DNA of 39,851 nt from a virus, in IMG/VR virus record IMGVR_UViG_3300030419_004974, positions 1 through 39,851 of that record; one strand, written 5' to 3'. This document shows positions 15,978 through 32,765 of this stretch, in pieces; the first letter of the stretch is position 1, and each line of letters begins with the position of its first letter. A program made the position numbers and the translations under genes. The notes beneath the pieces were generated by a model, which saw only the letters and a program-made list of their open reading frames with translations, did not search any database and was not told the origin of the DNA.

Positions 15978-16452
15978 AAATAAAAACCTTACCAATAAAG
16001 AGCTTGAAGAAAAGCTAATCCGTGAAAACTACGGTTTAGTTGTTTCTCAGGCTCTTTATTTTTTAGGCGATCCAAATTTTGAAGATTACATTCAGGCTGG
16101 GTTGATCGGTCTGCTTAAAGCTGTTAGAAATCACAATGAAGACAAAGCAAAGTTTAGCACCTTTGCAGCCGTATGTGTCAGGAATGAAATAAAGAACCTC
16201 AGCACAAAATCAAGAAAGCATAGGGCAAAGAATTACAGAAGTGTAAAAGAAAAGGATAAGCAGTATGATAAGAAGGAAGCGTTGTCTGAATGTTTGCCAG
16301 AATTTCTATCAGAAGAGTACAAGTTTATAATATCGTTGAAAATACAAAATTATACCAACAAAGAAATATCTGAGTTTATTTCTTGTAGTAAAGCAGAAGT
16401 AAAAGAAAAGATAGAGCTGATAATTAAACTTCTAAAAGAGTATAACGTATGA
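15889..16452 (+). CDS. Sigma70-family RNA polymerase sigma factor
   Basis: Residues about 40-105 match sigma region 2: YIQAGLIGLLKAVRNHNEDKAKFSTFAAVCVRNEI, including the -10-reading and melting segment. The C-terminus (YTNKEISEFISCSKAEVKEKI) is a region-4-type HTH. The 187-residue length and absence of regions 1 and 3 are typical of small alternative sigmas. The start is at ATG 15889; a TTG at 15844 is possible. It would redirect host RNA polymerase to phage promoters. Confidence 0.8.
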   Translation: MATKDSQQNLESKSSNSLTQQEKNKNSIAENKNLTNKELEEKLIRENYGLVVSQALYFLGDPNFEDYIQAGLIGLLKAVRNHNEDKAKFSTFAAVCVRNEIKNLSTKSRKHRAKNYRSVKEKDKQYDKKEALSECLPEFLSEEYKFIISLKIQNYTNKEISEFISCSKAEVKEKIELIIKLLKEYNV

Positions 16453-18083
16453 GAAAAAAAAGAATACTATTCTGCGGTGAAGCCACCTATCTAAATACAG
16501 GCTATGCTACTTATGGTCGTGAAGTTATAAGCCGTTTATATAGCACTCAAAAATATGAAATAGCAGAATTTGCTAGTTATGGTAGTTTGTCTGACCCAAG
16601 GGCTGCTAGTATACCTTGGAAAATGTATCCAAACCTCCCTACTAACGATGAAGAAAAAAAACAGTATGAAGAAAATCCCATCAATCAGTTTGGAGAATGG
16701 CAATTTGAACCTGTTTTGTTGGACTTTCAGCCTGATATAGTATGCGATATTCGTGACTTTTGGATGTTTGAATACCAAGAACGCTCTCCCTATAGACCGT
16801 ATTTCCACTGGGCAATTATGCCAACGGTTGATTCTTCCCCTCAAAACGAACAATGGATAGCAACGTTTGCAAACGCTGACGCAGTTTTCAACTATTCTGA
16901 ATGGGGTCATAAAGTTTTAAAGGAGCAATCGAATGGAACGATTAACTGTTTAGGCGTTGCTCCACCTTCTGCTGATGCAGCATACAAACCAGTTGAAAAC
17001 AAAAAAGAGCATAAATCTAGCATGGGTTTTGACCCAGACAAAAAAATTATCGGAACTGTAATGAGAAATCAAAGAAGGAAGCTTTTTCCAGACCTCTTTG
17101 AATCTTTCAGAAAGTTTCTTGATACTAGTGGAAGAACAGACGTATTCTTATATTGCCATACAAGCTATCCAGACTTGGGGTGGGATATACCAAAGCTATT
17201 AAATAGATACAAAATATCAAGTAAAGTATTCTTTACTTATATATGTAACGTGTGCGAACATACCTTTCCTTCGTTCTTCTCTGATGCCAGAGGAAAATGT
17301 CCAAAATGCGGTAGTTTTGCAGCAGGGTTGTCAAACGTACAAAAAGGCGCTTCTTATGAATACTTAGCCAGCATAATGAACGTGTTTGATTTATACATAC
17401 AATACGCAAACAGCGAAGGGTTTGGTCTTCCACAGGTAGAAGCAGCCGCATGTGGAGTTCCTGTAATGAGCGTTGATTATTCAGCCATGAGTAGCGTTGT
17501 AAGGAAATTAGACGGAACACCGCTTAAAACCAAAGCTTTATACAACGAAGTAGAAACTGGATGCGACAGGGCTGTTCCAGATAATGATTACACGGCAGAA
17601 AAAATAAAGGAGTTTTTTGAATCGTCTGACAAGGAAATAGAAATGGCGTCAAAGAACGTAAGGCTTAATTTTGAAAAATATTATCAGTGGGATAAAACAG
17701 CCCGAAAGTGGGAAAACTACTTTGACTCAGTACAATTAAAACCACCACATCTTTCATGGCACGCCCCACCTAGAATACATCAATCAGCAAGACCTTTAGA
17801 AAACGAAAATATTCCAGCTTCTGAATACGCCAGATGGCTTATAGTCAATGTTTTAGGAGAGCCAGAAAAACTAAACACCTACTTTGAATCTAGACTAATT
17901 AGAGACCTTAACTATGGAATGTATATAAATGGAACCGGAGAAATGTATCTCAATGAAGATTCCTACAAATTTGTAAAACCAGCTTTTGAAGAATTTACAA
18001 AAAAAGAAGCCTATAACATGATGGCTAACCTATGCGCTAGGCGAAATCACTGGGAATCAGCTAGAAAAGAAAGAATCAGATGA
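16449..18083 (+). CDS. GT4-type glycosyltransferase with zinc-ribbon insert
   Basis: A GT-B fold glycosyltransferase of 544 residues. The N-terminal domain begins RILFCGEATYLNTGYATYGREV. The C-terminal nucleotide-sugar site is NSEGFGLPQVEAAACGVPV. Between the two sits CxxC...CPKC (C266, C269, C284, C287), a zinc ribbon unusual inside GT4. A further ~150-residue tail contains no recognised domain. Donor and acceptor are unknown. The stop overlaps the next GT gene by 4 nt. Confidence 0.8.
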   Translation: MRKKRILFCGEATYLNTGYATYGREVISRLYSTQKYEIAEFASYGSLSDPRAASIPWKMYPNLPTNDEEKKQYEENPINQFGEWQFEPVLLDFQPDIVCDIRDFWMFEYQERSPYRPYFHWAIMPTVDSSPQNEQWIATFANADAVFNYSEWGHKVLKEQSNGTINCLGVAPPSADAAYKPVENKKEHKSSMGFDPDKKIIGTVMRNQRRKLFPDLFESFRKFLDTSGRTDVFLYCHTSYPDLGWDIPKLLNRYKISSKVFFTYICNVCEHTFPSFFSDARGKCPKCGSFAAGLSNVQKGASYEYLASIMNVFDLYIQYANSEGFGLPQVEAAACGVPVMSVDYSAMSSVVRKLDGTPLKTKALYNEVETGCDRAVPDNDYTAEKIKEFFESSDKEIEMASKNVRLNFEKYYQWDKTARKWENYFDSVQLKPPHLSWHAPPRIHQSARPLENENIPASEYARWLIVNVLGEPEKLNTYFESRLIRDLNYGMYINGTGEMYLNEDSYKFVKPAFEEFTKKEAYNMMANLCARRNHWESARKERIR

Positions 18084-19192
18084 AAGTTCTCTACACAGGC
18101 TGCTACAGAGATGGAACCGGATGGGGACAAGCCGCCATAGATTATATACTGTCTATGGACGCTGTTGGAATTGATGTAGTCCCCCGACCAATAAAACTAA
18201 ATCAAACCATTGTTGATATACCAAAAAGAATTTCTGAGCTAGAAAAAAAGGACAGCTCAGGAGCCTCTGTTTGCATACAGCATATTCTTCCACACATGAT
18301 GGAATTCAGTTCCAAGTTTGATAAGAATATAGGTCTTTACGCTACAGAAACCAGCAACTTTAAAGATTCAGGATGGGCTAGAAAAATAAATATGATGGAC
18401 GAAGCTTGGGTTATTAATAACCAAATGTTTCATGCGTCAAAAGACAGTGGGGTTACGATACCAATAAAGGTAGTTCCTCATGCAACAGATTTTTCAAAGT
18501 TTGAAAGAGGCTATAAAAAATTAGATTTATCAATCCCCGAAGATAACTTTGTCTTTTACACAATAGCCGATTTAAACAAAAGAAAAAACCTAGAGGCTTT
18601 TGTAAAAGCGTTTCACACGGAGTTTGAACCGTCAGAGCCTGTTTCCCTTCTAATAAAAACAAACAAATACGGAATGGAGCCTGATGAAATTGCATTAAAG
18701 GTGAGGGACTTGTGCAATAACATTAAATCCGGCCTTAAAAAATACAATTCTATCGGAGACTACAAGGAAGATTTAATCATAACGAGCTTTGTTAGTGACG
18801 AAGATGTGTGCCGAATACATAATACATGCGATTGTTTTGTGACATCTAGCTACGGGGAGGCTTGGTGTATACCGGCTTTTGATGCGATGGGTTTTGGGAA
18901 AACACCGATTTGCACAAACATTGGTGGCATGGCCGATTTCATAGGAGATGGCGGGTTTTTAGTAGAGGGGACGATGGAACCCGTATTTGGAATGATGGAA
19001 ACTTTTAATGACTTGTTTACTGCAAACGAAAGCTGGTGTTCTGTCAGTATACAAGGATTAATGGATTGCATGAGGCATGTCTATGAGAATCGTCAAGATC
19101 TTAAAAATATGAAAAAGACGGGATTAAAGCGAGCATATGAATACTCGCATGAGAATATTGGTAACTTGATAAAGGGTTTACTCGATGCTTAG
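18080..19192 (+). CDS. GT4-type glycosyltransferase
   Basis: A 370-residue GT-B enzyme. The N-terminal domain has MKVLYTGCYRDGTGWGQAA, with an unusually Gly-rich first loop. The C-terminal donor site is SSYGEAWCIPAFDAMGFGKTPI followed by NIGGMADFIGDGGFLV, the E-x7-acidic pattern of GT4. It is similar in design to the preceding gene, so the two could have arisen by duplication, though identity looks low. It probably transfers a sugar to a shared glycan. Confidence 0.8.
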   Translation: MKVLYTGCYRDGTGWGQAAIDYILSMDAVGIDVVPRPIKLNQTIVDIPKRISELEKKDSSGASVCIQHILPHMMEFSSKFDKNIGLYATETSNFKDSGWARKINMMDEAWVINNQMFHASKDSGVTIPIKVVPHATDFSKFERGYKKLDLSIPEDNFVFYTIADLNKRKNLEAFVKAFHTEFEPSEPVSLLIKTNKYGMEPDEIALKVRDLCNNIKSGLKKYNSIGDYKEDLIITSFVSDEDVCRIHNTCDCFVTSSYGEAWCIPAFDAMGFGKTPICTNIGGMADFIGDGGFLVEGTMEPVFGMMETFNDLFTANESWCSVSIQGLMDCMRHVYENRQDLKNMKKTGLKRAYEYSHENIGNLIKGLLDA

Positions 19193-20198
19193 TCCACTAT
19201 CTTACATTATTAGAGCTGCAACTAGAGATCCTGAAGATAAGTTAAATATTCTTACTTTCCCAACGCACGAGCGTTATGAAAGCATGTTATCTAAAACTGG
19301 CCACAATTTTTATTCCTATAGAGCCAAGGGTATTAAAGATTGGAATGAAACATATGCTAAACTACCAGATAATTACCACCTTCTTGATCCACAGCTTGAA
19401 AACAACCAAATTCCAGAACATGTTGATTTTGATTTAGTTCTATCTCAAAACAAGTTTGGTCAATTTCAAATAGCCTCACAGCTATCTAAACAATTACACC
19501 TTCCATTGGTTAGCTTAGAGCATACTTTACCAATGCCGCAATGGGCTGAAGGAACTCTCGCTCAGCTTAGAGAAATGAGAGGCCATACCAACCTTTTTAT
19601 ATCTGACTACAGTATAAATGCTTGGGGGTGGGAAGATAGAGGTGATACCCAAGTAATTACTCATGGAATCGACACGGATTTGTTTTGCCCAAAAGAAGGC
19701 GAAAGAAGCGATGAGATTTTATCTGTTGTTAACGATTGGATTAACCGAGATTGGTGCTGTGGATTTGGTATTTGGCAAGAAGTAATACAAGGGCTACCTT
19801 ACAAGGTGGTTGGCGATACTCCGGGTTTGTCTGAACCAGCCGCTTCAATTGAGGGGCTTGTCGCCACCTACCAAAACAGCAGGATATTTTTGAATACATC
19901 AACTATATCCCCAGTTCCGACAGCTTTAATGGAAGCGATGTCTTGTGGTTGTGCGGTTGTGTCTACTGCAACCTGCATGATTCCAGAAGTCATAGAGCAT
20001 GGAGTCAACGGCTTTATTACCAACGATAAAGAGCAGATGAAACAACATCTTGTTGATTTATTGAACGATGAGGATATGGCAAAAGAAATCGGAGACAATG
20101 CAAGAAAAACAATAGTTGAAAGATACTCTACAGATCTCTTTGTTAACAACTGGGAGTCTGTTCTACGCAACGCGGCAAATATAACCTTTAGGGGATGA
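19185..20198 (+). CDS. GT4-type glycosyltransferase
   Basis: A 337-residue GT-B-like enzyme. VSLEHTLPMPQW and DTQVITHGIDTDLF lie in the inter-domain region. The donor-binding motif is STISPVPTALMEAMSCGCAVVSTA followed by GVNGFI. The N-terminal domain is shorter than in most GT4 members. It overlaps the preceding gene by 8 nt and ends 1 nt before the next ATG. Confidence 0.75.
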   Translation: MLSPLSYIIRAATRDPEDKLNILTFPTHERYESMLSKTGHNFYSYRAKGIKDWNETYAKLPDNYHLLDPQLENNQIPEHVDFDLVLSQNKFGQFQIASQLSKQLHLPLVSLEHTLPMPQWAEGTLAQLREMRGHTNLFISDYSINAWGWEDRGDTQVITHGIDTDLFCPKEGERSDEILSVVNDWINRDWCCGFGIWQEVIQGLPYKVVGDTPGLSEPAASIEGLVATYQNSRIFLNTSTISPVPTALMEAMSCGCAVVSTATCMIPEVIEHGVNGFITNDKEQMKQHLVDLLNDEDMAKEIGDNARKTIVERYSTDLFVNNWESVLRNAANITFRG

Positions 20199-20199
20199 C

Positions 20200-20664
20200 A
20201 TGAAAGTTAGAATTACAGTTGGAGAACAAGAAAAGCTTAATGGGTACACCAATATAGACCCAATAACAAAATTTGATGGATTATCTATAGATGTAAGAAA
20301 TCTAGACGATTTAGTTTCAGATGCCGAATGCACAGAAATCATATCAGAAGGAGTCATAGACTATTTAAACAAAGATGATCTTGTTTTGTCAATAAGCAAC
20401 TGGGTTAAAAAGATGAGGCATGGAGGCAAAATAGTGGTAACATCAATAGACGCTCTTGAGGTAGCTAAGGCTTTTGCAAAGCAGAAAATTGATATAGACA
20501 CTTTCAATAAAGCAATTCATGGTAATTTCTCACAGGGTTGGGATGTATTTCTCAATCACACCACAATAGAAGAGTTGTCCTCCGTCTTGGAAAAGCTTGG
20601 CTTATTTGTAACAAAGAAAAGAATTAATGGTATTAAGTTAATAGTGGAGGCTCAAAGACCATAA
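20200..20664 (+). CDS. Methyltransferase-like protein without clear SAM motif
   Basis: The N-terminus reads like small sugar methyltransferases of the Methyltransf_11 group (KLNGYTNIDP, then a short acidic segment and MRHGGKIVVTS), but the usual glycine-rich SAM loop (GxGxG) is not seen. It may be degenerate or use a variant site. The 154-residue length is short for the family. AGGGG lies upstream of ATG 20200. It is sandwiched in the glycosyltransferase run. Confidence 0.5.
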   Translation: MKVRITVGEQEKLNGYTNIDPITKFDGLSIDVRNLDDLVSDAECTEIISEGVIDYLNKDDLVLSISNWVKKMRHGGKIVVTSIDALEVAKAFAKQKIDIDTFNKAIHGNFSQGWDVFLNHTTIEELSSVLEKLGLFVTKKRINGIKLIVEAQRP

Positions 20665-21521
20665 TGTCAGACGAACATGTAAAAGACCTGTCAGATTTTA
20701 TTCCAAAACCATTGAACGATGATGAATGGGAAAATAGAGAGGTTAAACAGGTCAATTTAACATCTTGTAAGGAATGCATATTCGCTATTAAAGATGGAAA
20801 CACACAAACAGGATGTGAGCTTGGAAGGTTAGAAAAATTTAGAAAAAAAGAAATTGATGTAATTGAGGCTCATGATGATAATTCTGAATTCTATGGCTTA
20901 CTCACTTGGTGTAACACATACAGAAGGGAGGCGTGGTCTATAGCCAATAAAGGTGAAGATCTAGTTGCTCTTGTTAAATCAGAAACCGCTCCAAATGTTA
21001 ACTTCATTGTACTTGTAAACAAAACTATGGACGGTCTTGAAAATACTGTTGATTCTATCTTGAAGCAAAAGCAAATATCGGCTTGTCGAATTTTATTTGC
21101 GCATATGGGAAATGAAAAAGACGTTTCCTATGTGGATTTAATCGAAAAATGCAAAGACTTAGTAGACGGTAGGGTTGGTTTTAAAGTTCAAAATCAACTA
21201 CCTAACCTTTCTCAAAGAGAAGCGATTGATGAAGCCTTTTCCGCTCTTTTAGCTGGTTATTATACAGTATTAGAGTGCGGCAAAGAAGCTCCTGAAGACT
21301 TGTTAAAAGTTCTTCAGGATAGTCTGCACGATGACATGAAAAACGTTGGGTTTATAGAAGGATATGATGGTATTAATGGCTTAACCGTACAATGCGTGTT
21401 ACACAAGTTTTTGTATGGTAATAGAGGGGCTGACATTGAAGTAAAGCTAAAAGAAGGCGAAGAATACGACGAAACTCTTCCCCAAAATTCTCTCCTTCAT
21501 ACTTGGGATGACTTAAGATGA
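20664..21521 (+). CDS. Cys4 domain fused to degenerate GT-A-like domain
   Basis: The N-terminal part has C35, C38, C51 and C83 in a CKEC...GCELGR...WCNTYR setting, probably binding zinc or an Fe-S cluster. Residues about 105-260 (NVNFIVLVNKTMDGLENTVDSILKQ) resemble the opening of a GT2 glycosyltransferase, but no DxD motif follows. The next gene is a complete GT2, with a 4-nt overlap, so this protein may be its partner. It is not a proven enzyme. Confidence 0.55.
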   Translation: MSDEHVKDLSDFIPKPLNDDEWENREVKQVNLTSCKECIFAIKDGNTQTGCELGRLEKFRKKEIDVIEAHDDNSEFYGLLTWCNTYRREAWSIANKGEDLVALVKSETAPNVNFIVLVNKTMDGLENTVDSILKQKQISACRILFAHMGNEKDVSYVDLIEKCKDLVDGRVGFKVQNQLPNLSQREAIDEAFSALLAGYYTVLECGKEAPEDLLKVLQDSLHDDMKNVGFIEGYDGINGLTVQCVLHKFLYGNRGADIEVKLKEGEEYDETLPQNSLLHTWDDLR

Positions 21522-22306
21522 ACCTTCCTGAAGTTACTATATTAATAGCAAACTATAATGATGAAGAGTATATTGATAGGGCAATAGAAAGCGCCGTTAA
21601 CCAAGACTATCCCGGCCCAACAAATATATGCATTGTGGACGATGGTTCTACAGATGGATCTTGGGATATCATCGAAACCTACATTAAAAACCCCGCAAAG
21701 GACACCACCGAAGACAATTTGGATGTAACCTTTTCTCAACACTCCGGTGGAAGATTTGGAAACACAAAAGTGTACGCTATCAAAAACGAGAATAGCGGCC
21801 CAAGCGAAGCAAGAAACGTTGGCATTAGATATATGATTGAAAAAACAGACATATTTGCCATCTTAGATTCCGATGACGAAATGTATGAAAACAAAGTTAG
21901 AGAATGCGTAATACCTTTTGAGGACAGTTCAATAGGTGTTGTTTATGCTGATTACGATACTCTACACACTAACACTGGAAAAATAATCAGAGAATTCAAA
22001 GAGCCTTATGATAAAGCAAGACTAGTGCAGGAATGTATTGTTCATAGCGGATCTCTTATATCCAAAGAAGCTTTAGAATATGTAGAAGAAGAAACTGGGT
22101 ACTACGACAAAACAATGAGAACCTGTGAAGATTACGACCTCTGGATGAGAATAAGTGAAAGATTCATGATAAGCCATGTGCCAAAAGCTTTAACACTTGT
22201 CAGGGTTACGGGTGACAACTCATCTTTTATTGTCAACCAAGAAGTCTGGCAAAAAAATTGGATGAGAGTGATGCAAAAAATGCAGGCGAGAAATGCGAAG
22301 AAATAG
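21518..22306 (+). CDS. GT2 family glycosyltransferase
   Basis: A GT-A enzyme of 262 residues. It starts VTILIANYNDEEYIDRAIESAVNQ, then IVDDGSTDGS (residues 39-48) and the metal-binding DSDD (117-120, in FAILDSDDEMY). RTCEDYDLWMRISE is the typical late acidic/helical block. All expected catalytic features are present, unlike the preceding protein. It transfers a sugar from a nucleotide donor to a growing glycan or acceptor. Confidence 0.88.
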   Translation: MNLPEVTILIANYNDEEYIDRAIESAVNQDYPGPTNICIVDDGSTDGSWDIIETYIKNPAKDTTEDNLDVTFSQHSGGRFGNTKVYAIKNENSGPSEARNVGIRYMIEKTDIFAILDSDDEMYENKVRECVIPFEDSSIGVVYADYDTLHTNTGKIIREFKEPYDKARLVQECIVHSGSLISKEALEYVEEETGYYDKTMRTCEDYDLWMRISERFMISHVPKALTLVRVTGDNSSFIVNQEVWQKNWMRVMQKMQARNAKK

Positions 22307-23003
22307 GTTTACAAGCCGAATCAAAAAGAAAGGGGCTGGCACAACACCTGACAACCCTTTAACTGTAATAATACCGGTGGCTGGCATGGGTCATAGAATG
22401 AAGTCGTATGGCCCGAAATGTCTTCTTCAAGCAAACCAAAAAGAAACAATAATTGAAAAAACAATATCGAATGTAAGAAAAGAATATCCATATTCTGACA
22501 TCATCGTTGTTGTCGGTTTTGAATCTGAAAAAATAATAAAGACCCTACCTCATAATATAAGAGTGGTTGAAAACCACAGGTATGAAGAAACGAACATAGG
22601 GGAAAGCATCCGAATCGGAATAAATGCAGCAGCGAATAAAAATTTACTAATAATATATGGCGACCTTATATTCAACGTATATTCAATTAGAGGTTTGACC
22701 TCAAATGGCCCTTGCGTAGTTATAGATTCAAAATTTAGATTTAAAGAAGACGAAGTGGGCGTAACTGTAGTTGACGACTTTGTAACCAACTTCGCGTATG
22801 GTTTGCCTAAAAAGTGGTCTCAGATAGTTTATTTAGAGGATGAGTCATTCGACTATTTAAAATTTCTATGTTCCGATAAAAGAAAAGACAAGCTGTACCC
22901 ATTTGAACTCCTTAATATAATTATCAACAGCGGCGTGGAGATAAGAGCAAAAGAACCAAAGGGTATGTTAATAAAAGAAATAGACTCTATGAAGGATTTG
23001 TAA
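22293..23003 (+). CDS. Sugar nucleotidyltransferase (NTP transferase)
   Basis: The signature VIIPVAGMGHRMKSYGPKCLL (G31-R35, PK at 41-42) is the NTP-binding loop of nucleotidyltransferases such as GlmU/RmlA or CTP:phosphocholine cytidylyltransferase. YGDLIF gives the metal-binding acidic site. It probably activates a sugar-phosphate or an alcohol-phosphate to its nucleotide form for the neighbouring transferases. The substrate cannot be read from sequence. Confidence 0.8.
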   Translation: MRRNRFTSRIKKKGAGTTPDNPLTVIIPVAGMGHRMKSYGPKCLLQANQKETIIEKTISNVRKEYPYSDIIVVVGFESEKIIKTLPHNIRVVENHRYEETNIGESIRIGINAAANKNLLIIYGDLIFNVYSIRGLTSNGPCVVIDSKFRFKEDEVGVTVVDDFVTNFAYGLPKKWSQIVYLEDESFDYLKFLCSDKRKDKLYPFELLNIIINSGVEIRAKEPKGMLIKEIDSMKDL

Positions 23004-23152
23004 TGGGTACTTACTGGGCGTATGTAAATAATCACTATAAATGGTATGCGTGGTATTACCTTGAAGGTGAGATCCAAGTTAAGCTAGGGCCATTTTTTAC
23101 ACAAGAGGAAGCTCAAGAAGCGGTAAAAGAATATGAAGATTCTAATAAGTAG
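23003..23152 (+). CDS. Small aromatic-rich protein, 49 aa
   Basis: An ORF of 49 codons starts with an ATG overlapping the upstream TAA by one base and ends 20 nt inside the next gene. It is rich in Tyr and Trp (YWAYVNNHYKWYAWYYL) and has an acidic helix at the end. The gap of 129 nt would otherwise be empty in an operon without gaps, so a real gene is likely. Function unknown. Confidence 0.55.
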   Translation: MGTYWAYVNNHYKWYAWYYLEGEIQVKLGPFFTQEEAQEAVKEYEDSNK

Positions 23153-24179
23153 CGATGGCCCACACGCTCATTACTACATAAGAATGTCTTGGTTAAAAGT
23201 CTTCAGGGCTATGGGTCATGATGTTCAATTATGGCATAAAGATGAAAAACCAGCCTTTGACATCTTTGATGAGTTTGAGCCTGATTTATTTATGGGTCAA
23301 ACATACAATCTAGACGATGCTCTTTTTAAGTGTATTAAGCATAGACCTCATATGAAAGTCGTGATGCGAGCCTCTGATTGGGGTTATATGCAAAAAGGTA
23401 TTGATTTAAAGAAGTACCCAATATTAGTAGCCCAAGAAGAAGAGAAGAAACTTTTAGAGAGATTAAAAGAAGAGACTGGGAAGCCAGACCTTGTACACAA
23501 TCACTACCACGAAAACTGGATTAAGGTGACGCATAATGAATGGGAAAGTATAGGAATTAGACCAATTTCACTTTTGCACGGGGCTGATATATTCGATTTC
23601 TACCTTCGCCCCCCAGTAAAGCAGCTTCAATGCGATATTGGTTTCGTGGGTGGTTATTGGCCTTACAAAGCTATCAATCTTGACAAGTATCTTATTAACC
23701 TTTGTCATCCAGTTGGAAAATACAACATCAAGATATTTGGAACTTCAAATTGGCCTGTAGCGCAATATAATGGAAGAGTATCTACTGAGAATGTTTGTGG
23801 TTTGTTTGCCTCTGCTACCATCTCTCCAAACATCAGCGAGCCACATTCCCAAGACTTTGGATACGACATTATCGAAAGACCTTTCAAGATTCTTATGAGC
23901 GGGGGTTTTTGCATTTCTGATTACGTTGAATCAATGGCAAACGATGTGTTTACAAACAACGAAATTGTTTTCGCTAAAACCCCAGAAGAGTTTGAACAGT
24001 TAATAAAATACTATATTAATAACCCAGAAAAAAGAATAGAACACATAAAAGCAGGGTACAATTCTGTTGTAAGTAATCACACATACTTTCACAGAATATC
24101 AAGTCTTCTATCCGAACTAGGAATGAAAGATGAATCCGATCATTGCATAAAAACAATGAGCAATTTTTTTGAGGAATAA
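23133..24179 (+). CDS. CgeB-type glycosyltransferase
   Basis: A 348-residue GT-B-like protein. The C-terminal half (SPNISEPHSQDFGYDIIERPFKILMSGGFCISDYVESM) matches the CgeB/Glyco_trans_1_2 group seen in spore-coat and phage glycosylation genes. The N-terminus starts MKILISSDGPHAHYYIRMSW. Donor and acceptor unknown. Confidence 0.72.
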   Translation: MKILISSDGPHAHYYIRMSWLKVFRAMGHDVQLWHKDEKPAFDIFDEFEPDLFMGQTYNLDDALFKCIKHRPHMKVVMRASDWGYMQKGIDLKKYPILVAQEEEKKLLERLKEETGKPDLVHNHYHENWIKVTHNEWESIGIRPISLLHGADIFDFYLRPPVKQLQCDIGFVGGYWPYKAINLDKYLINLCHPVGKYNIKIFGTSNWPVAQYNGRVSTENVCGLFASATISPNISEPHSQDFGYDIIERPFKILMSGGFCISDYVESMANDVFTNNEIVFAKTPEEFEQLIKYYINNPEKRIEHIKAGYNSVVSNHTYFHRISSLLSELGMKDESDHCIKTMSNFFEE

Positions 24180-24180
24180 A

Positions 24181-25116
24181 ATGACAACATTAGTCACCGG
24201 AGGAAACGGGTTTATAGGCAGGCATCTAATTGGCGAGATCTATAAACACAAAGAAGTTTTTGGGCCTATTGTAAATGTTAGTAGAAGATCTTTTTCTTCC
24301 CCTTTTATTTCGGCAAGTTACCCCTGCGATATTGGGCTACCATATGAATACGAACCTGAGTTCGAGTGTTTAAGGTACATCTTTAAGAAACATCAACCAA
24401 AGTTTATTTTTCATTTAGCTGGAAAAGCTACAGTAAAAATGGACGGCAGCGAACCTTTTGATATTATTCAAGATAATATCTTAAGCACGCAGAAAATCTG
24501 TCAATGGGCGCCGAAAGGCGCTAAGGTTATTCTAGCTTCTTCTGTAATTACTTATGGCGACTGGATGTTTCAACAAGAATCTCCAAGACCATACACAGAA
24601 GAGGATCGAACAGAACCAACTTCTATCTATGGAATCACTAAGCGGGCTTCCGAAGGAATAGTTAATTATCATGACAGTACGGATCGGATAAGCGGAGTTT
24701 CGGCTCGTATTTGTGCAACTGTTGGGCGTGGGTTAACCCACGGAGTTGTTTATGATTTTATCAGAAAAATAACAAACAATCCCACTTTAGAAGCTTTAGG
24801 GAGCAAGCCCGGATCTACAAAACCTTATTGCTATATAGAAGATTTAGTAAACGCCTTGGTTATATTGGCCATGAGTAAGAAAACCAGAGGAGAATATAAC
24901 ATTGTACCTGATGATTCAATAAGTATTGAAGAGGTTGCCAAAGCTGTGATGGAAGGTTTAGAAAACCACAAAGAAATCGAGTGGCTTGGAGAGAAGGCAA
25001 ACTGGAAAGGCGACAACAGGTTAATATCTGTTAGCAACCAAAAAATGCGAGACTTGGGATGGGAGCCAAAATACAAGTCCAAAGAAGCTATCATCCAAGC
25101 TGTTAAGGATATGTAA
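24181..25116 (+). CDS. NAD(P)-dependent sugar epimerase/dehydratase (extended SDR)
   Basis: The start is ATG 24181, with GAGGA 5 nt upstream; an in-frame TTG at 24169 is less likely. The Rossmann motif is GGNGFIG (7-13). The catalytic site is YGITK (YxxxK), with SSVITYG before it providing the Ser. It probably converts a nucleotide sugar, as in UDP- or GDP-sugar epimerases and dehydratases. Catalytic residues are all present. Confidence 0.85.
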   Translation: MTTLVTGGNGFIGRHLIGEIYKHKEVFGPIVNVSRRSFSSPFISASYPCDIGLPYEYEPEFECLRYIFKKHQPKFIFHLAGKATVKMDGSEPFDIIQDNILSTQKICQWAPKGAKVILASSVITYGDWMFQQESPRPYTEEDRTEPTSIYGITKRASEGIVNYHDSTDRISGVSARICATVGRGLTHGVVYDFIRKITNNPTLEALGSKPGSTKPYCYIEDLVNALVILAMSKKTRGEYNIVPDDSISIEEVAKAVMEGLENHKEIEWLGEKANWKGDNRLISVSNQKMRDLGWEPKYKSKEAIIQAVKDM

Positions 25117-25119
25117 TTC

Positions 25120-26142
25120 GTGAATATATTATTCAGCCCCTTGATGCCACTGGAAATATCCACTGAAAACGCCGGTATGGTTTCCGACTATCAATCCGAC
25201 ATGGTTTTTCATGGGTTGGTAAAAACACTAGGTCAAGATTTACATACAGGTCACGATCTCTGGTGGCATCACAAAGAAGTAAAACAAGACAACCCCAATA
25301 TCTTTAATAAAATATGGGGCAGTGGGTTTACTATGTATGGTCTTTTAGAAAAAGAAGAGTGGACATATACAAGCATAAAAAGCCCCTCTGGGTATGATGC
25401 GGTTGTTATACCGATACATCATACAATGAACAAGCAAGATGAGTATCTTTTTGATGTTGTTAGCTTTTTAAGATCAAGCGATGTTGGTTATTCTAAAAAC
25501 CAAGTAATAGTAATTGATGGCTGGGATCAAGAACATATATGCAAACAGGTTGCTGAATTGTGTACATATTACAAAAGAGAGATGCAAGATCATCATAAAG
25601 AGTACGCCTTTCCCATCTCTTTTGCTTTTCCTAAAGAGAAAATAAGAGATATAGATGACTCAAAAAGAAATGTTGCGTTTGCACCCCTTATACCGGTAAA
25701 CCAATCAATTGACCCCTCTTACATGTCTACATATATATATGACACAGAAGAAAGCTACTATGACATGTACCAGACCGCCTACTTTGCGTACACATCAAAA
25801 AAGGGAGGCTGGGATACCTTGCGTCATTATGAAATTATAGCAAACGGATCTATACCATTCTTTGTTGACATAGAAAGCTGTCCTAAACACACTCTTTGGG
25901 ATTTTCCAAAAGAACGAGTGTTATCAGCTAGAGGTATGCTAGGAGGTGTTCCAAAACTCAAAAAAGGTGTTTGGAAAAACCAAGAGCTTCCACATTGTGG
26001 GGTAATTGATAAAGACAACCCCGGATTTCTTCAGGATTTCCACAAAGAATTATGGATTCACTACAGGGATGAAATTTATTCATGGCTAAAGAGGGAAGGA
26101 ACAACCGAATCTTTAGCAGAGTACATACTAGGGAAAATATAA
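25120..26142 (+). CDS. Exostosin-like glycosyltransferase
   Basis: A 340-residue protein starting at GTG, with AAGGA 10 nt upstream. The late block GGWDTLRHYEIIANGSIPFFVDIESCP, followed by LWDFPKE, resembles the conserved donor-binding segment of exostosin-type (GT47-like) transferases, where an R-x-x-E-x4-G-x-I-P pattern recurs. The N-terminal half is not recognised. Assignment rests on this one motif and the locus. Confidence 0.55.
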   Translation: MNILFSPLMPLEISTENAGMVSDYQSDMVFHGLVKTLGQDLHTGHDLWWHHKEVKQDNPNIFNKIWGSGFTMYGLLEKEEWTYTSIKSPSGYDAVVIPIHHTMNKQDEYLFDVVSFLRSSDVGYSKNQVIVIDGWDQEHICKQVAELCTYYKREMQDHHKEYAFPISFAFPKEKIRDIDDSKRNVAFAPLIPVNQSIDPSYMSTYIYDTEESYYDMYQTAYFAYTSKKGGWDTLRHYEIIANGSIPFFVDIESCPKHTLWDFPKERVLSARGMLGGVPKLKKGVWKNQELPHCGVIDKDNPGFLQDFHKELWIHYRDEIYSWLKREGTTESLAEYILGKI

Positions 26143-26856
26143 ATGTTTGGAATAACAAAGGCTTACTGTTTATGTTTAGACAAAAGAAAAGAGCATTGGC
26201 TAGACTTAAAACAACAGTGCGAATCTAAAGGTTTGGAATTTAATCGCTTTTTGGTTGGGGAAGGTAAAATTTTTGACGAAGATGAATATGACTTAATTGA
26301 TACTTCGGTGGCTGATTTATCTAATTGGTCTTATGGTGGCCATGAAAAAGATAGCCCTTATGAAAAACAAGTCAAAAAAACCAAACATTACAACGCTTTT
26401 TTGTCACATCAGGCAATGGCTAGAAAAGCCCTGCAAGATGGAGATGAAAAGGTTTTATTTTTAGAAGACGATGCATACTTCACAGAAAGATTTGACAAAG
26501 TCGTTGAAAAATCAAGCGCTGATATTGAACAACTAGATTACGACATGCTTTACTTGGGATGGTGGATAGGCAACGAAGGAGACGAGTGGAACCAACAGAT
26601 TGAAGACGAGTGGAGCAAAGATGAAAATTACGGCATTGGATCAACCAGAAGAATTGGTGGACTCCATGCTGTTATTATTTCAAGAAGAATGTTAGACATC
26701 ATAACAAGACTAGACCCATTCGACCCCATAGATTCTCAGCTTTCCACGTATTTTCACGATAAGATAACGTCTTTCTTTTTAGCTCCAAAGATCATTCACG
26801 ACAAAGGTATTTTTAGCGAATGTGAACAAAATGTAGTTGAAAGACTGAAACTATGA
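26143..26856 (+). CDS. Glycosyltransferase family 25 protein
   Basis: Matches the GT25 (LPS/procollagen galactosyltransferase) pattern: an N-terminal AYCLCLDKRKEHW, then AFLSHQAMARKAL and FLEDDAYF with the acidic metal site. GGLHAVIISRRM and a final HDK segment fit the family's C-terminal part. It is 237 residues, the usual size. It is the last gene before the second gap. Confidence 0.82.
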   Translation: MFGITKAYCLCLDKRKEHWLDLKQQCESKGLEFNRFLVGEGKIFDEDEYDLIDTSVADLSNWSYGGHEKDSPYEKQVKKTKHYNAFLSHQAMARKALQDGDEKVLFLEDDAYFTERFDKVVEKSSADIEQLDYDMLYLGWWIGNEGDEWNQQIEDEWSKDENYGIGSTRRIGGLHAVIISRRMLDIITRLDPFDPIDSQLSTYFHDKITSFFLAPKIIHDKGIFSECEQNVVERLKL

Positions 26857-26884
26857 ACATAGAATTACCAGAAGAAGACTGGGT

Positions 26885-26909
26885 ATAATAAACCATCTCT
26901 GGTTATTAT
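26885..26909 (+). other. Hairpin in the 91-nt gap before the second sugar block
   Basis: The 91 nt between 26857 and 26947 contain an imperfect hairpin, arms 26885-26894 and 26901-26909 with one bulged A and a 6-nt loop. A TATAAT (26884-26889) overlaps its left arm, but no matching -35 was found. An 11-codon ORF (26853-26888) ends at the hairpin. It could be a processing site, attenuator or weak promoter. Confidence 0.35.
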
Positions 26910-26947
26910 ATATAAGCAGATTAGTTTACGACAAACAAGGGTTATAG

Positions 26948-27883
26948 ATGACAAAAATATTAGTGACTGGCGGTGGCGGCTATGTTGGGAATGTTTTATG
27001 CCGACATCTTCTAAGCAAGGGATATAGAGTAAAATGCGTTGACAACTTTCATAAGGGTCAATGTGATGCAATTATACCGTTAGCAACAAATCCAAACTTT
27101 GAATTTGAGTATGGAGATGTAACAGTTCCAGAACAAATGAAGGAGACTATCGTTGGGTGTGACGCTATTATTCATCTTGCTGCTATTGTTGGCTTTCCGG
27201 CTTGCAAATCCCAACCCGCTCTTGCAACGGCGGTAAACGTAGATGGTACAAAAAACGTATTAGACGCTCGTGAATTCTACAACCCAAAGATGCCTTTCGT
27301 TTATGCGTCCACAGGCAGCGTCTACGGTAAGGTAGAGGGTATATGCGATGAGGAGTCCCCATTGAACGCCGTATCGCTTTACGGGCTAAATAAGCGTGTT
27401 GCAGAGCAAATGGTGATGAATCAGGAGAATACCGTATCTTTTAGATTCGCTACCGGATTTGGTGTTAGCCCATGTATGCGGGTGAACTTGCTCGTAAACG
27501 ACTTTGTTTATCAGGCTATCACTAATGGCATATTAACTATCTTTCAGGCAGATTTTCGTAGAACCTTTATCCATGTTAGAGATATGGCAAAAGCTTTTAC
27601 TATGGGTTTTGAAAATATGAAAAACTGGAAGCATAAGGTTTATAACTGTGGTGCTAACCACCTTAACTGGACTAAAAGAGAATTAGCAGAATATGTAAAA
27701 GAGCAAACTGGATGCTTTGTTCATTACGAAGAAATTGGAACAGACGCTGACCAAAGAGATTATGAAGTAAGTTATGACAAACTAGAATCCGAAGGCTTTT
27801 CTTGTGACGTAGACATGAAAACAGGCATTCAAGAACTAATTAAAGTAGCACCCATACTACAAATAAGGCATCAATATTCATAA
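26948..27883 (+). CDS. NAD(P)-dependent sugar epimerase/dehydratase (extended SDR)
   Basis: A 311-residue SDR. The Rossmann motif is GGGGYVG at residues 8-14. The active site is STGSVYG...LYGLNK, with Ser/Thr, Tyr and Lys present. The RRTFIHVRDMAKAF block is typical of nucleotide-sugar epimerases. AAGGG lies 6 nt before ATG. Its exact reaction (epimerase, dehydratase or decarboxylase) is undetermined. It overlaps the next gene by one base. Confidence 0.85.
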   Translation: MTKILVTGGGGYVGNVLCRHLLSKGYRVKCVDNFHKGQCDAIIPLATNPNFEFEYGDVTVPEQMKETIVGCDAIIHLAAIVGFPACKSQPALATAVNVDGTKNVLDAREFYNPKMPFVYASTGSVYGKVEGICDEESPLNAVSLYGLNKRVAEQMVMNQENTVSFRFATGFGVSPCMRVNLLVNDFVYQAITNGILTIFQADFRRTFIHVRDMAKAFTMGFENMKNWKHKVYNCGANHLNWTKRELAEYVKEQTGCFVHYEEIGTDADQRDYEVSYDKLESEGFSCDVDMKTGIQELIKVAPILQIRHQYS

Positions 27884-28833
27884 TGGAAATTAAAGACGCA
27901 AAAGTTTTAGTCACTGGTGGAGAAGGTTTTCTCGGCACTGCCCTGTGTGAAAAAATAATTGAGCATGGAGCTACGCCAGTCGTCTTAAGACATGAAGAAG
28001 TAAATCTTCACGACCTCCAAGCTATCATACATTTTTTGACAGCAACCAAGCCAGATTTTTGTATACACGCCGCTGGCTACAATGGTGGAATAGAATTTAA
28101 CAGAATGTATCCAGCAGACATTCTTTATTCAAATACAGTAATGGGACTTAATATCCATCACGCATGTGAATACATGGGTGTAAAAAAAGTGCTATCAATT
28201 ATGACATCCTGTGCTTACCCAGACACTGGCATGGATTTATTAAAGGAAGAAACTTTCTGGAATGGACTTCCTAACAAGACTATCAGAGCGCATGGAATCG
28301 CTAAAAGAACACTTCAAGCCGCGTCAGAAGCCTATAATGATCAGTATGAATTAAATGCCTCTACTGTATGTGTTACAAATTTATATGGGCCAAATGACAC
28401 ATTTAATTTGGTCAGAACTAAAGTCGTTGGCGCTCTTATCAGAAAATTTGTAGAGGCAAAAATTGAAGAAGATGAGACTGTTGAGTGTTGGGGTACTGGC
28501 GCACCAATGAGAGAGTTCATGTATGTTTACGATGCGGCAGAGGCGATTGTTCAAGCATTAAAGAAATATGACGACTGTTCTCAACCACTTAATATAGGCA
28601 CTGGGAAAGACATTAGCATAAAAGATCTTGTTGGATATATAACTAAAGCTATAGACTACGAGGGAGAGGTTTTCTGGAATACGGAAAAACCAGACGGTCA
28701 AATGAAAAAACTTCTTGACACATCAAGAATGAAAGAATACATTGACATAACTCCGATAGATGTGGGAGAGGGTGTTAGAAGGACGGTAGAGTGGTATTCA
28801 AAAAATAAAGAAAAAGCCGATGCCAAAAAATAA
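27883..28833 (+). CDS. GDP-L-fucose synthase-like SDR with altered active site
   Basis: Clearly related to GDP-fucose synthase (WcaG/Fcl): AAGYNGGIEFNRMYPADILYSN, TNLYGPNDTF, CWGTGAPMREFMYVYDAAEA and KPDGQMKKLLDTSRM all match along its length. However the catalytic Tyr (E. coli Y136) is His137 and the catalytic His179 is Lys180. Cys110 and Lys141 remain. It may be inactive, regulatory or catalyse a different step. No GDP-mannose dehydratase gene, which would normally supply its substrate, is identified with certainty in the window. Confidence 0.82.
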   Translation: MEIKDAKVLVTGGEGFLGTALCEKIIEHGATPVVLRHEEVNLHDLQAIIHFLTATKPDFCIHAAGYNGGIEFNRMYPADILYSNTVMGLNIHHACEYMGVKKVLSIMTSCAYPDTGMDLLKEETFWNGLPNKTIRAHGIAKRTLQAASEAYNDQYELNASTVCVTNLYGPNDTFNLVRTKVVGALIRKFVEAKIEEDETVECWGTGAPMREFMYVYDAAEAIVQALKKYDDCSQPLNIGTGKDISIKDLVGYITKAIDYEGEVFWNTEKPDGQMKKLLDTSRMKEYIDITPIDVGEGVRRTVEWYSKNKEKADAKK

Positions 28834-29293
28834 CCAGATAGGGTTTTTAGTAGACAATACGATGGCCAATCAGCTATCTTATAATCTAATAAAAAACATA
28901 AATGGCTACTTAGAGAATAGTAGTGATGACATCGTTCTATTTTTTGAAAATTCAACAACCAGCATACTGCCTCCAAATTTTTCATTAATGTCTACAAATG
29001 AAATATGGAGCTTTGAAGGTTCGTTGTTTGCCACCAGCGTTTCTACATCTCTTTCTGTGCAAAAATCCTTTGCTCCTAAAAATAAGTTTTTTTACGTTTG
29101 GGATCTTGAATGGACTAGAGAGCATGGAAGAGACTTTGAATCTACCATAAAAGCTTTTTCCAACGAAGACATGGAGCTGATAGCAAGAAGCGAAGACCAC
29201 GCAAAGGCAATAGAAAATTATTGCAACGTAAAAGTAAAACATATAGTAAAAGACTGTAACGTAGAACAATTAGTGAGGATATCAAATGAGTAG
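28820..29293 (+). CDS. Hypothetical protein of the glycan locus
   Basis: A 157-residue protein with an opening IGFLVDNTMANQLSYNLIKNI that resembles the first Rossmann strand and loop of GT-B enzymes, but no C-terminal donor domain. It could be an N-terminal-only GT-B relative. It overlaps the upstream gene by 14 nt and the downstream one by 8 nt. Function unknown. Confidence 0.5.
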   Translation: MPKNNQIGFLVDNTMANQLSYNLIKNINGYLENSSDDIVLFFENSTTSILPPNFSLMSTNEIWSFEGSLFATSVSTSLSVQKSFAPKNKFFYVWDLEWTREHGRDFESTIKAFSNEDMELIARSEDHAKAIENYCNVKVKHIVKDCNVEQLVRISNE

Positions 29294-30074
29294 CGCGTTT
29301 ATAAATAAATACAAAGAGTTTATTATAGATCAGTATACAAATCATAAAAAAAGCACTTATGAGATAGCTCAAGAACTTAAAACTTATCCTAATAAGATAA
29401 GAAGAGCTTTAAACACTCTTGGGGTCGATCTAAGAGACAAAAGTAAAGCTCAAACTATTGCCATACAAAATGGAAGGCATGAACATCCAACAAAGGGAAA
29501 GAAAAGAACAGAAGCAGAAAAGGTTGCAATCAGCAACGGAATGGCTACCTATTGGGACGAAATGGAAGAATCAGAACGAGAAAGGCGATCTAAGCTTTCC
29601 AAGAAACAATGGGAAGAAATGTCTGATGAAGACAAGGCCAATCTCAGAAGATTAGCCGCTGAAGCCGTAAGAAAAGCATCAAAGGAAGGCTCAAAGATTG
29701 AAAAATTTATCCTTGAGGGGTTGACCAAAGCTGGTTACGATGTTATCTTTCATAAACGTGGATTAGTAGCAAACGACAAACTTGAAGTCGATCTGTTCAT
29801 TCCATCTCTTAGAACCGCAATCGAGATTGATGGGCCTGCTCACTTTTTACCGATTTGGGGTCAAAAAAATCTCGAAAAACACATTAAAGCAGACGCTCAA
29901 AAATCCGGCCTCCTGATCAACCGAGGATTTGTTGTGCTTAGGGTTAAAAACATAACTCGCAATTTGTCGCAAAAGAAGATGCGAGAAACACTAACTGGTG
30001 TTGTCGAGCAGTTAGAAAAAATAGAAAAGAAATTTCCCCCACCAACAAAACGTTTAATTGAAATTGAATCATAA
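29286..30074 (+). CDS. Vsr-like endonuclease with HTH and NUMOD-type repeats
   Basis: Residues about 20-50 form an HTH (STYEIAQELKTYPNKIRRAL). Residues 62-85 (NGRHEHPTKGKKRTEAEKVA) are like NUMOD3 DNA-contact repeats found in homing endonucleases. The C-terminal nuclease core has D169 and E180 in VDLFIPS...AIEIDGPAHF, matching the stand-alone nuclease at 4220. This is the architecture of a homing or mobile endonuclease, although it may be domesticated. It lies between glycan and recombination genes. Confidence 0.7.
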   Translation: MSSAFINKYKEFIIDQYTNHKKSTYEIAQELKTYPNKIRRALNTLGVDLRDKSKAQTIAIQNGRHEHPTKGKKRTEAEKVAISNGMATYWDEMEESERERRSKLSKKQWEEMSDEDKANLRRLAAEAVRKASKEGSKIEKFILEGLTKAGYDVIFHKRGLVANDKLEVDLFIPSLRTAIEIDGPAHFLPIWGQKNLEKHIKADAQKSGLLINRGFVVLRVKNITRNLSQKKMRETLTGVVEQLEKIEKKFPPPTKRLIEIES

Positions 30075-31006
30075 TGTACAGCAATAAAACTATTAAAGAA
30101 CTCAAACAAATATTGAACGAACACAATTGTGCCGTTCCTAACGGTGCAAAGAAAAAAGACTTAGTTGAATTAGTGGAGGCAATCATGGCCAAAGATGAAG
30201 ATTTTGTAACTATGCAGATTCCCGATGTAACAATGTTCGATGATGTTTTTGAAGAAGAAACAGAAGAACAGGAAGAAAAAGAAGGCGTGACTGTAATAGA
30301 AGAAAACGCTAACGAAGAAGATAGACCTTCGATGTTTAGCGAAGAATGGAATGAGTATGTCATGGCTCATTTCAAACGCAACGAGTTAATAGATGGCAAC
30401 CCTATATGTGCTGGGTTAAGAAGGGTGGCAGAGTTATTACTTGGGGACATTATCGAGTCTGGCCCAGAACAAGTTTTTCCAGCATCAGACAGCAATGGCC
30501 CCGGTAGAGCCACTGTAGTTTTTAGCATAACTTTTAACTGGATGAACACTGGCTCAACCAGAACGTTCAAAGAGGTAGCAGATGTGTGGCATGGGAATAC
30601 TGATGACTTGTTCTGCGCTCATCCTGTCGCTACTGCTAGCACGAGGGCTGAAGGCAGAGCTTTAAGAAAAGCTTTGAAGTTAAGATGTCTTGCCGCTGAG
30701 GAATTGGCAAAGAAAGACATTGTTGACATTGTGCAGCAAGCAGTCAAGCAAGCTCCAACTTCAGGAGAATACGAAGCGGGTAAGAGCATTAGTAGTCAGC
30801 AAATACAGTTTATTGATAATAAATGTAGTATGCTAGATATTGACGCCTTTGCTTTTATTAACATGGGAAATGGTAGTTTTTCAACCGTGTCTGAAGTAAC
30901 AAAAGACAGTGCGAAAAAGATGATAAAAGTCTTGAACAATTATCAAAATAACAGCGGGGACATACCCGACAGTATTAAAGGTTATAAGGTTAACTGGAGA
31001 GAATGA
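30074..31006 (+). CDS. SAP-domain Rad52/ERF-like single-strand annealing protein
   Basis: Residues about 3-42 (SNKTIKELKQILNEHNCAVPNGAKKKDLVELV) form a SAP-type DNA-binding motif. An acidic linker follows. The core (RATVVFSITFNW, then HPVATASTRAEGRALRKALKL) resembles Rad52/ERF-type annealing proteins, with the conserved RAEGRALR helix. A C-terminal helical module (QQIQFIDNKCSMLDIDAF) is common in phage annealing proteins. It would anneal single strands in recombination. Function is inferred from motifs. Confidence 0.6.
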   Translation: MYSNKTIKELKQILNEHNCAVPNGAKKKDLVELVEAIMAKDEDFVTMQIPDVTMFDDVFEEETEEQEEKEGVTVIEENANEEDRPSMFSEEWNEYVMAHFKRNELIDGNPICAGLRRVAELLLGDIIESGPEQVFPASDSNGPGRATVVFSITFNWMNTGSTRTFKEVADVWHGNTDDLFCAHPVATASTRAEGRALRKALKLRCLAAEELAKKDIVDIVQQAVKQAPTSGEYEAGKSISSQQIQFIDNKCSMLDIDAFAFINMGNGSFSTVSEVTKDSAKKMIKVLNNYQNNSGDIPDSIKGYKVNWRE

Positions 31007-31335
31007 TGAAAGTAACATATACAAGCGGAAAAATTAGCGTACAAATTGAAGCAGACACTCAAATAGAACTGTTTCAGCAGCTAGCTAATTTTCAAGAGAT
31101 CTTTGATGAAACCAAATGCGGCAAATGCGGCAGCGAAAATATCAGATTCCAAGTTAGGAATGTAGATGATAATCTTTACTATGAAGCTAAATGTATGGAT
31201 TGTGGAGCGAAATTAGCATTTGGAGTTATGAAAAAGGGTGGTAGACTCTTCCCTAAGCGCAAAGATAAAGAAGGCAAATGGCTACCTGATGGCGGTTGGG
31301 TTAAGTGGAACCCAGACACTCAGAAAGAAGAGTAA
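31003..31335 (+). CDS. Zinc-ribbon protein downstream of annealing protein
   Basis: A 110-residue protein with four cysteines (C39, C42, C64, C67) forming a zinc ribbon. Two ATGs (31003 and 31006) are possible; the first overlaps the upstream stop. A Lys/Gly-rich tail ends with DGGWVKWNPD. Its coupling to the annealing protein suggests a shared DNA role. No family recognised. Confidence 0.55.
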   Translation: MMKVTYTSGKISVQIEADTQIELFQQLANFQEIFDETKCGKCGSENIRFQVRNVDDNLYYEAKCMDCGAKLAFGVMKKGGRLFPKRKDKEGKWLPDGGWVKWNPDTQKEE

Positions 31336-31985
31336 TGGTTGATATAATCAAATCAAATATCGAGAACATAAGAACGTGGAGAAATGAGCAACGTAGATTT
31401 AGAGATGCTTTGCTTGCCACGTTAGTTCGTTTGAAACCAAAATGCTGCCTAGAAATAGGCACGCATCTTGGTCAATCAACAGAAGTGTTCCAAAAATATT
31501 TCGATGAATATCAACAAGACGGTGTTGTTGTTACGGTTGACATACACAAATATAAAGACCTTAGTCATCTTAAAAACGTCAAACAGTTAATTGTTCATCC
31601 ACATGTCGATAATTCATCTGACTGGCATTATGTAAACAATGAAGAATTGCTTGATCACAACGTAGACTCTGTTGCTAAAAACACCGAGATTATAAGAGAG
31701 GCGATAAGAAGCCTTCCAGAAAACGATTTTGATTTTTGTTTTCTAGACGGTGATCATCAAAGAGATTCAGTTATAAAAGACTTTGCAATCTCAAGAAATC
31801 TTTTAGCAGAACCTCAGTACATACTTTTTGATGACACTCAAGAAGATGGCGGTGGACACGATTCTGTAAAGGTGTATGAAGAAATTGTAGCTGAACAAAA
31901 GTACAATATCTTCGATTTCTCAGAGAACTGGGGTGTGTATTGTGGATGCGCTCTAATATGGAATAAAAAAACCCCATCAACCTAG
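31335..31985 (+). CDS. Class I SAM methyltransferase (Methyltransf_24-like)
   Basis: Start at ATG 31335, with GAAGAG upstream; an in-frame codon at 31305 lies inside the previous gene. SAM motif is CLEIGTHLGQST; FLDGDHQRDSV and LFDDTQEDGGGHDS are the acidic metal- and substrate-binding blocks of the Methyltransf_24 group. It is the last plus-strand gene, and its final codons lie inside the minus-strand terminator hairpin. Probably a sugar or small-molecule O-methyltransferase. Confidence 0.78.
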   Translation: MVDIIKSNIENIRTWRNEQRRFRDALLATLVRLKPKCCLEIGTHLGQSTEVFQKYFDEYQQDGVVVTVDIHKYKDLSHLKNVKQLIVHPHVDNSSDWHYVNNEELLDHNVDSVAKNTEIIREAIRSLPENDFDFCFLDGDHQRDSVIKDFAISRNLLAEPQYILFDDTQEDGGGHDSVKVYEEIVAEQKYNIFDFSENWGVYCGCALIWNKKTPST

Positions 31986-32732: not shown

Positions 32733-32765
32733 GTCTTAATCTCCTTAGAGCTTAAATTCTATATT

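Follow-up and report, generated by a model that had tools for sequence, protein, structure and literature searches.

Glycosyltransferase clusters in phage genomes are known as variable islands that often lie in the structural region, and they have been read as modifiers of the host surface (PMC7029224, PMC7824862). Here, a glycan locus was analyzed in a 39,851-base genome fragment of a virus, a single entire IMG/VR record (IMGVR_UViG_3300030419_004974) referred to below as the window. At 16449-31985 of the window, 18 open reading frames (ORFs) on the plus strand directly follow ssb and a sigma factor gene and make up a locus with a conserved core and a variable cassette. The host recognition cluster of pelagimyophages and cyanomyophages is comparable, being a hypervariable island rich in glycosyltransferases and sugar enzymes in large marine phages; however, the pelagimyophage islands are situated in the structural region with tail fibers (PMC7029224), while the present locus is placed between ssb and nuclease and zinc (Zn) ribbon genes at the strand switch between replication and virion genes, and its core is universal. 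The polysaccharide glycosyltransferase clusters of jumbo phages and cyanophages likewise contain epimerases, a nucleotidyltransferase, several glycosyltransferase families, and methyltransferases, as well as cupin and oxygenase genes, which the present lineage has in its larger cassettes. In contrast, those clusters are sporadic and polymorphic even among related viruses (PMC7824862), whereas the polymerase is the neighbor of the first glycosyltransferase gene, GT1zn, in 80/80 loci of the present lineage.

Relatives of the locus, all of them metagenomic fragments with functions assigned via homology and fold, were collected in two sets that overlap in some contigs. The first set, obtained by tblastn and profile mapping, comprised ~90 loci, and a second, wider scan returned at least 588 viral relatives with GT1zn (16449; genes are named by their first position), of which the best 80 were examined. 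In the ~90 loci, the common order was dnaB-primase-kinase-cas4-dnaE_N-exo-dnaE_C-ssb-(sigma)-GT1zn-GT2-GT3-20200-20664-(GT2-family)-NTP-(CgeB)-cassette-28820-nuclease-30074-Zn ribbon, where GT1zn, GT2, and GT3 are the first, second, and third GT4 slots, and opposite-strand genes come after the Zn ribbon. This arrangement is ancient. The cassette, which covers 24169-28833 in the window, holds no genes in distant relatives (G011, G012), a few in G002, and >10 to >20 in G006, G003, and G001. As in an accessory island, several glycosyltransferase families are combined with nucleotide-sugar enzymes, and the gene content of the cassette is sporadic or polymorphic among relatives; the core does not share this behavior, and the locus sits between ssb/sigma and the nuclease/Zn ribbon genes and not among structural or tail fiber genes, the virion-side genes lying past the strand switch. 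In these respects, the locus differs from an ordinary accessory lipopolysaccharide (LPS) cluster. Since none of the relatives examined has its core genes away from the polymerase, sugar decoration appears to belong to the core functions of this phage group and not to be an optional extra.

The hallmark of the lineage is GT1zn, whose conservation equals that of the replicative polymerase. An alignment of 37 loci showed the motifs GxxMRNQxRKLxP and E-x7-E to be retained down to ~35% identity. Most lineages have a Cys4 zinc ribbon inside the protein, the ribbon being degraded in some. The ratio of nonsynonymous to synonymous substitution rates (0.006-0.041 in four informative close pairs) was low like that of the polymerase, reflecting purifying selection. 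Pairwise distances of GT1zn and of dnaE_C, the C-terminal half of the polymerase gene, were closely correlated (Mantel r, 0.93) with equal means (0.496 versus 0.487), and among the best 80 of the at least 588 relatives dnaE_C was always upstream of GT1zn, 103-1,481 bp away. Furthermore, an intein of 403 residues with splicing and LAGLIDADG domains is placed directly before the GT1zn catalytic Glu in two relatives, L075 and L078. Inteins usually occupy conserved sites of important proteins. The intein-bearing genes are located at L075:12005-14863 and L078:8136-10985, and the last intein residue is Gln in place of the usual Asn. Taken together, the core appears to behave like a housekeeping gene set.

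The features of the window are listed here, each with its supporting evidence (SDR, short-chain dehydrogenase/reductase; SAM, S-adenosylmethionine; AF2, AlphaFold2).

10389..12311, plus strand: dnaE N half (PHP + palm/NTPase domain); Pfam PHP, DNA_pol3_alpha; ORF separate from the C half in 97 loci
12522..13205, plus strand: 3'-5' exonuclease between the dnaE halves; Pfam RNase_T; same position in relatives
13168-13941: TylF-like methyltransferase within the split dnaE region, upstream of the glycan genes
13942..15546, plus strand: dnaE C half (fingers onward); Pfam DNA_pol3_finger
15621..15977, plus strand: ssb; Pfam SSB
15844..16452, plus strand: sigma factor, clade-specific neighbor; Pfam Sigma70_r2
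16449..18083, plus strand: GT1zn, core GT4 with inserted Cys4 zinc ribbon, hallmark gene; Pfam Glycos_transf_1
18080..19192, plus strand: core GT4, second slot; Pfam; E-x7-D/E kept in most loci
19185..20198, plus strand: core GT4, third slot (GT3); Pfam; first Glu of E-x7-E is Ser
20200..20664, plus strand: core protein, perhaps methyltransferase-like, in which the SAM glycine motif is not retained
20664..21521, plus strand: core protein of GT-A fold that lacks DxD; N terminus with four conserved Cys; AF2, Foldseek, motif check
21518..22306, plus strand: GT2-family glycosyltransferase, DxD intact; Pfam, motif
22293..23003, plus strand: core MobA/GlmU-like nucleotidyltransferase (NTP); Pfam NTP_transf_3, motif table, hhalign
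23133..24179, plus strand: CgeB-type glycosyltransferase; Pfam Glyco_trans_1_2
24169..25116, plus strand: SDR sugar epimerase/dehydratase, variable cassette; Pfam Epimerase
25120..26142, plus strand: cassette protein, class not recognized; no Pfam match
26143..26856, plus strand: GT25, variable cassette; Pfam; EDD motif kept
26948..27883, plus strand: SDR, GalE-like, cassette right edge; Pfam
27883..28833, plus strand: SDR closest to GDP-L-fucose synthase; NCBIfam NF047922, 246 bits, cutoff of 500 not reached
28820..29293, plus strand: GT-B N-terminal half, no donor domain, right bracket; AF2, Foldseek
29286..30074, plus strand: VSR/DUF559-type (VSR/homing-like) nuclease, right bracket; phrog_559; position conserved
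30074..31006, plus strand: HeH/LEM N terminus + conserved domain, right bracket; Pfam HeH, alignment
31003..31335, plus strand: Zn ribbon, right bracket; 51-81% identical in relatives; position conserved
31305..31985, plus strand: Methyltransf_24/CmcI-like methyltransferase, variable; Pfam; at this position in few relatives
32022..39851, minus strand: convergent block after the strand switch, with ORFs of 236, 194, and 218 amino acids (aa) and a Cys-rich ORF of >1905 aa

A sequence-only reading of the window had described a tight run of genes after SSB and sigma, and indeed the junctions overlap or touch nearly throughout, the only real gaps preceding 23133 (129 bp) and 26948 (91 bp); the run may be co-transcribed. 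This observation was partly confirmed and needs small corrections; the recurrence of the arrangement in the ~90 loci, and of an upstream dnaE_C in 80/80 loci of the wider scan, is more than chance would give. Six glycosyltransferases, one nucleotidyltransferase, three SDRs, and one methyltransferase were above Pfam cutoffs. The seven glycosyltransferases counted in that reading were reduced accordingly to three GT4, one GT2, one CgeB-type, and one GT25 protein, while the exostosin-like call for 25120 was dropped, with no Pfam or useful PDB profile match obtained even from its ten-homolog family. The nucleotidyltransferase (22293, NTP_transf_3/MobA-like) and the three SDRs (24169, 26948, and 27883, all SDR/epimerase by Pfam) were as proposed. 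One of two suggested methyltransferase-like proteins, 31305 (Methyltransf_24), was recovered, but the other, 20200, gave weak, sporadic sub-threshold matches and does not retain the motif I glycines. The extent given for the glycan locus, 16449-31985, fits most genes; however, 29286, 30074, and 31003 encode a nuclease, a HeH protein for which a recombination-related role is a possible guess, and a Zn ribbon, and the 29286-31335 stretch is outside glycan metabolism. The link to replication proved universal, whereas the link to transcription is clade-specific, sigma being missing from its position in distant relatives. Two VSR/DUF559-type nucleases, at 4181-4648 beside recA and at 29286-30074, have fixed positions throughout the lineage, which suggests that they are domesticated rather than mobile.

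Beyond what had been seen in the window, the locus falls into two parts, a vertically inherited core, in which several members are without catalytic motifs, and a variable cassette. The protein 20664, previously called glycosyltransferase-like, does have a GT-A fold (AF2 predicted local distance difference test [pLDDT], 91.5) and matches GT2/GT-A enzymes in Foldseek (E value, 1e-6); its DxD motif is missing in 37/37 sequences and four Cys are nearly invariant, while the control, the GT2-family protein 21518, retains DxD. A structure search of 20664 against viral models returned generic GT-A matches only. For 28820, a single GT-B Rossmann domain was predicted (pLDDT, 89.7), and its Foldseek matches, to BshA-type enzymes in their N-terminal half, had marginal E values but high probability. 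The nucleotidyltransferase 22293 possesses GxGxR and a GD motif in the clade of the window, both of which are gone in the distant clade, and GT3 (19185) has lost its motif in distant relatives, the first Glu of E-x7-E being already Ser here. In contrast, motifs are conserved in GT1zn, the second-slot GT4 (18080), 21518, and 26143 (EDD), and the active sites of these proteins look intact. The slots of distant relatives have diverged beyond the reach of simple searches. When window families were compared with these slots using hhalign, values of 94% for 20200, 98.5% for 20664, and 99.7% for the nucleotidyltransferase were obtained; the link for GT3 was weaker, at 57% over nearly its full length, and none was established for the CgeB slot.

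The DxD-free 20664 and the half-glycosyltransferase 28820, as modeled, may represent a novel type of pseudo-glycosyltransferase partner. In adhesin O-glycosylation, GtfA works with its partner GtfB on Ser-rich proteins, an active GT4 being combined with a glycosyltransferase-like partner that handles the acceptor (PMC5796085). The present locus may hold a similar pairing, as judged from motifs and folds, in that inactive-looking GT-A and half GT-B neighbors adjoin an active-looking GT4; unlike in the GtfA/GtfB system, the partners here have GT-A and half GT-B folds. DUF1975 was not reported for the window glycosyltransferase proteins by Pfam at an E value of 0.05.

Our preferred explanation, held tentatively and at somewhat less than even probability, is that of a bipartite operon in which a conserved core and a cassette act on targets that are soluble and most likely are virion proteins. 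The core would be a cytoplasmic multi-subunit initiating glycosyltransferase complex with one or two catalytic GT4 enzymes (16449 and 18080), and the glycosyltransferase-like, half-glycosyltransferase, and nucleotidyltransferase-like partners without catalytic motifs would bind the acceptor or act as scaffolds. Acting subsequently, the recombining cassette would provide modified nucleotide sugars and extra transferases, diversifying the finished glycan. The most likely acceptors would be the virion proteins of the phage itself, whose synthesis the core would precede, as it shares an operon with genes for replication and recombination. A hydropathy scan of the islands of eight relatives found at most one protein with a transmembrane-like stretch per island, versus 1-10 transmembrane-like genes elsewhere in the same records, and no multi-spanning flippase, polymerase, or transferase of the Gtr/Wzx-Wzy type was present in these islands, so that assembly must either take place in the cytoplasm or depend on the host. 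With neither membrane machinery nor a hydroxymethylase (see below), virion proteins and host precursors are the main candidates; virion proteins are preferred on the grounds that the core occurs throughout the lineage and is inherited together with replication genes, not sporadically, although sequence does not decide between them. A likeness by proposed function only is provided by mycobacteriophages, whose glycosyltransferases decorate capsid and tail proteins (Freeman et al. 2023, as cited in PMC12619734). In a search for Ser/Thr-rich acceptors, the protein of 236 aa at 32022 ranked first in the window (22% S+T), but several G001 proteins were richer, and the result was not counted as evidence.

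PDB profile matches of GT1zn, which include GtfA/Gtf1 and chlorovirus B736L, count in favor of this explanation, but they are weak and rest on the common GT4 donor region and therefore do not identify the acceptor. Several points weigh against it. No relative is cultured, and no glycan has been seen. The soluble enzyme set is equally compatible with host LPS-core or O-unit assembly via host flippases, and KdsA-like and WavE-like proteins recognized in G001 by inspection point to Gram-negative envelope sugars. Along these lines, LPS core, O-unit, or capsule precursors could be reworked, blocking superinfection or removing receptors with the help of host flippases and ligases. This main rival, a real but less probable possibility, is the standing reading for the glycosyltransferase islands of pelagimyophages (PMC7029224) and of cyanophages and jumbo phages (PMC7824862), and the variable cassette, the GT25, and the fucose-synthase-like SDR are in line with it. 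However, jumbo phage and cyanophage islands are sporadic and polymorphic, while the core here is universal and tracks the polymerase, and the islands are without a multi-spanning initiating transferase, as well as the flippase and polymerase noted above.

A DNA target could be indicated by the position among replication genes, and decoration of phage DNA by the core would explain its place in the replication operon, where the neighborhood with dnaE, ssb, nuclease, and Zn ribbon genes is conserved and the core co-evolves with the polymerase. We consider this unlikely. Searches with PF00303, PF12851, PF00145, and PF06508 were performed across 14 related records, which are large (67-238 kb) but incomplete. 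A thymidylate-synthase/hydroxymethylase homolog was found in 0/14, the same search being positive in 9/14 control genomes; a C5-methyltransferase and QueC were each found in 1/14, and nothing was found for TET/JBP, for which the control was also silent. No member of the T4 alpha/beta-glycosyltransferase family was detected, the window glycosyltransferases matching only GT4, GT2, CgeB, and GT25 models in Pfam scans. Little or nothing of the known DNA hypermodification routes was thus present in the 14 records, and the doubt about base glycosylation voiced in the sequence-only reading was supported by the lack of a hydroxymethylase homolog in these relatives. It is improbable, in our estimation, that the core is a largely non-catalytic assembly, much of it having degenerated in some lineages and taken on a structural or regulatory role unrelated to glycans: nucleotidyltransferase and GT3 motifs are lost in the distant clade despite the fixed order, 20664 is DxD-free, and 28820 is half a glycosyltransferase, but the GT1zn catalytic motifs are full everywhere sampled, and the nucleotidyltransferase, 21518, and 26143 keep theirs in the clade of the window. 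Similarly speculative, and with low probability, the core could be a new glycosyltransferase machine of several subunits, some catalytic and others pseudo-enzymes, tied physically or temporally to the replisome and directed at a nucleic acid or replication-linked target and not at surface glycans. The earlier proposal of a complex glycan on the virion, the host surface, or DNA remains a fair open statement, and that interpretation is partly supported overall.

The DNA polymerase III alpha gene upstream of the locus is split between palm and fingers (10389-12311 and 13942-15546), with the exonuclease and, here, the TylF-like methyltransferase in between. The halves were separate in 97 loci and fused only in the outgroup L093; this was recounted by BLAST because the iterated dnaE_C profile had absorbed full-length DnaE sequences. 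The minimal split polymerase III of group 2.2 jumbo phages is similar but not the same, its halves being encoded far apart (PMC7824862). An extra ORF lies between dnaE_N and the exonuclease in two relatives (G012:121386-123935, 849 aa; G011:226631-229081, 816 aa), the former having RCC1-like repeats at its start, by eye. On the other side of the locus, the convergent minus-strand block presumably encodes virion proteins; its first three proteins (236, 194, and 218 aa) are kept beside the island, and in G001 the block follows the tape measure gene. The Cys-rich protein of >1905 aa (34047-39851) had no family match, and its ORF runs off the window end. Giant ORFs were seen in the tail region of relatives (G001:33560-46801, 4413 aa; G012:41905-59718, 5937 aa; G011:54587-70465, 5292 aa), those of G001 and G012 matching tape measure families, and no match to a sheath gene was found in this lineage. 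Very long non-contractile tails of ~0.7-0.9 um, at 0.15 nm per residue, are therefore predicted.

The lineage comprises large, uncultured, and probably long-tailed phages. Both ends of the 238-kb G011 record fall within one operon in matching order, and the genome is therefore probably nearly complete and circularly permuted. Among the cultured phages searched, a 22%-identical glycosyltransferase was found in Synechococcus phage S-EIVl, adjoining primase; the other matches were weak and to glycosyltransferases only, in Streptomyces phages and one Microcystis phage, and 20664 and 25120 had none. Moraphages are likewise large phages of aquatic habitats, and four of their core orthogroups carry glycosyltransferase annotations, but they were rejected as the same lineage, having PolB and a tail sheath (PMC12619734) where the present phages have a split DnaE and no sheath match. 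No description of the lineage was found in the open-access literature searched, which is no proof of novelty. Host assignment via metagenome-assembled genomes (MAGs) in GTDB was dropped: the bins were SAR202, Verrucomicrobiales, Alphaproteobacteria, Chitinophagia, Phycisphaerales, and Lokiarchaeota, and since nearly all binned contigs carry the phage module, they were treated as phage contigs in bins and no host was drawn. The module occurs on three contigs (L156, L157, and L159) binned as Lokiarchaeota MAGs and on two more in one SAR202 MAG, placements that probably reflect the binning of phage contigs.

Glycosyltransferase clusters of large phages are usually seen as optional metabolic cargo. 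In this lineage, represented by at least 588 public contigs and no cultured close relative, the initiating transferase and the replicative polymerase are equally conserved, so that glycosylation probably belongs to the basic steps of the life cycle. With a fixed core and a swappable cassette in one locus, the ways in which phages diversify their glycans can be tested directly.

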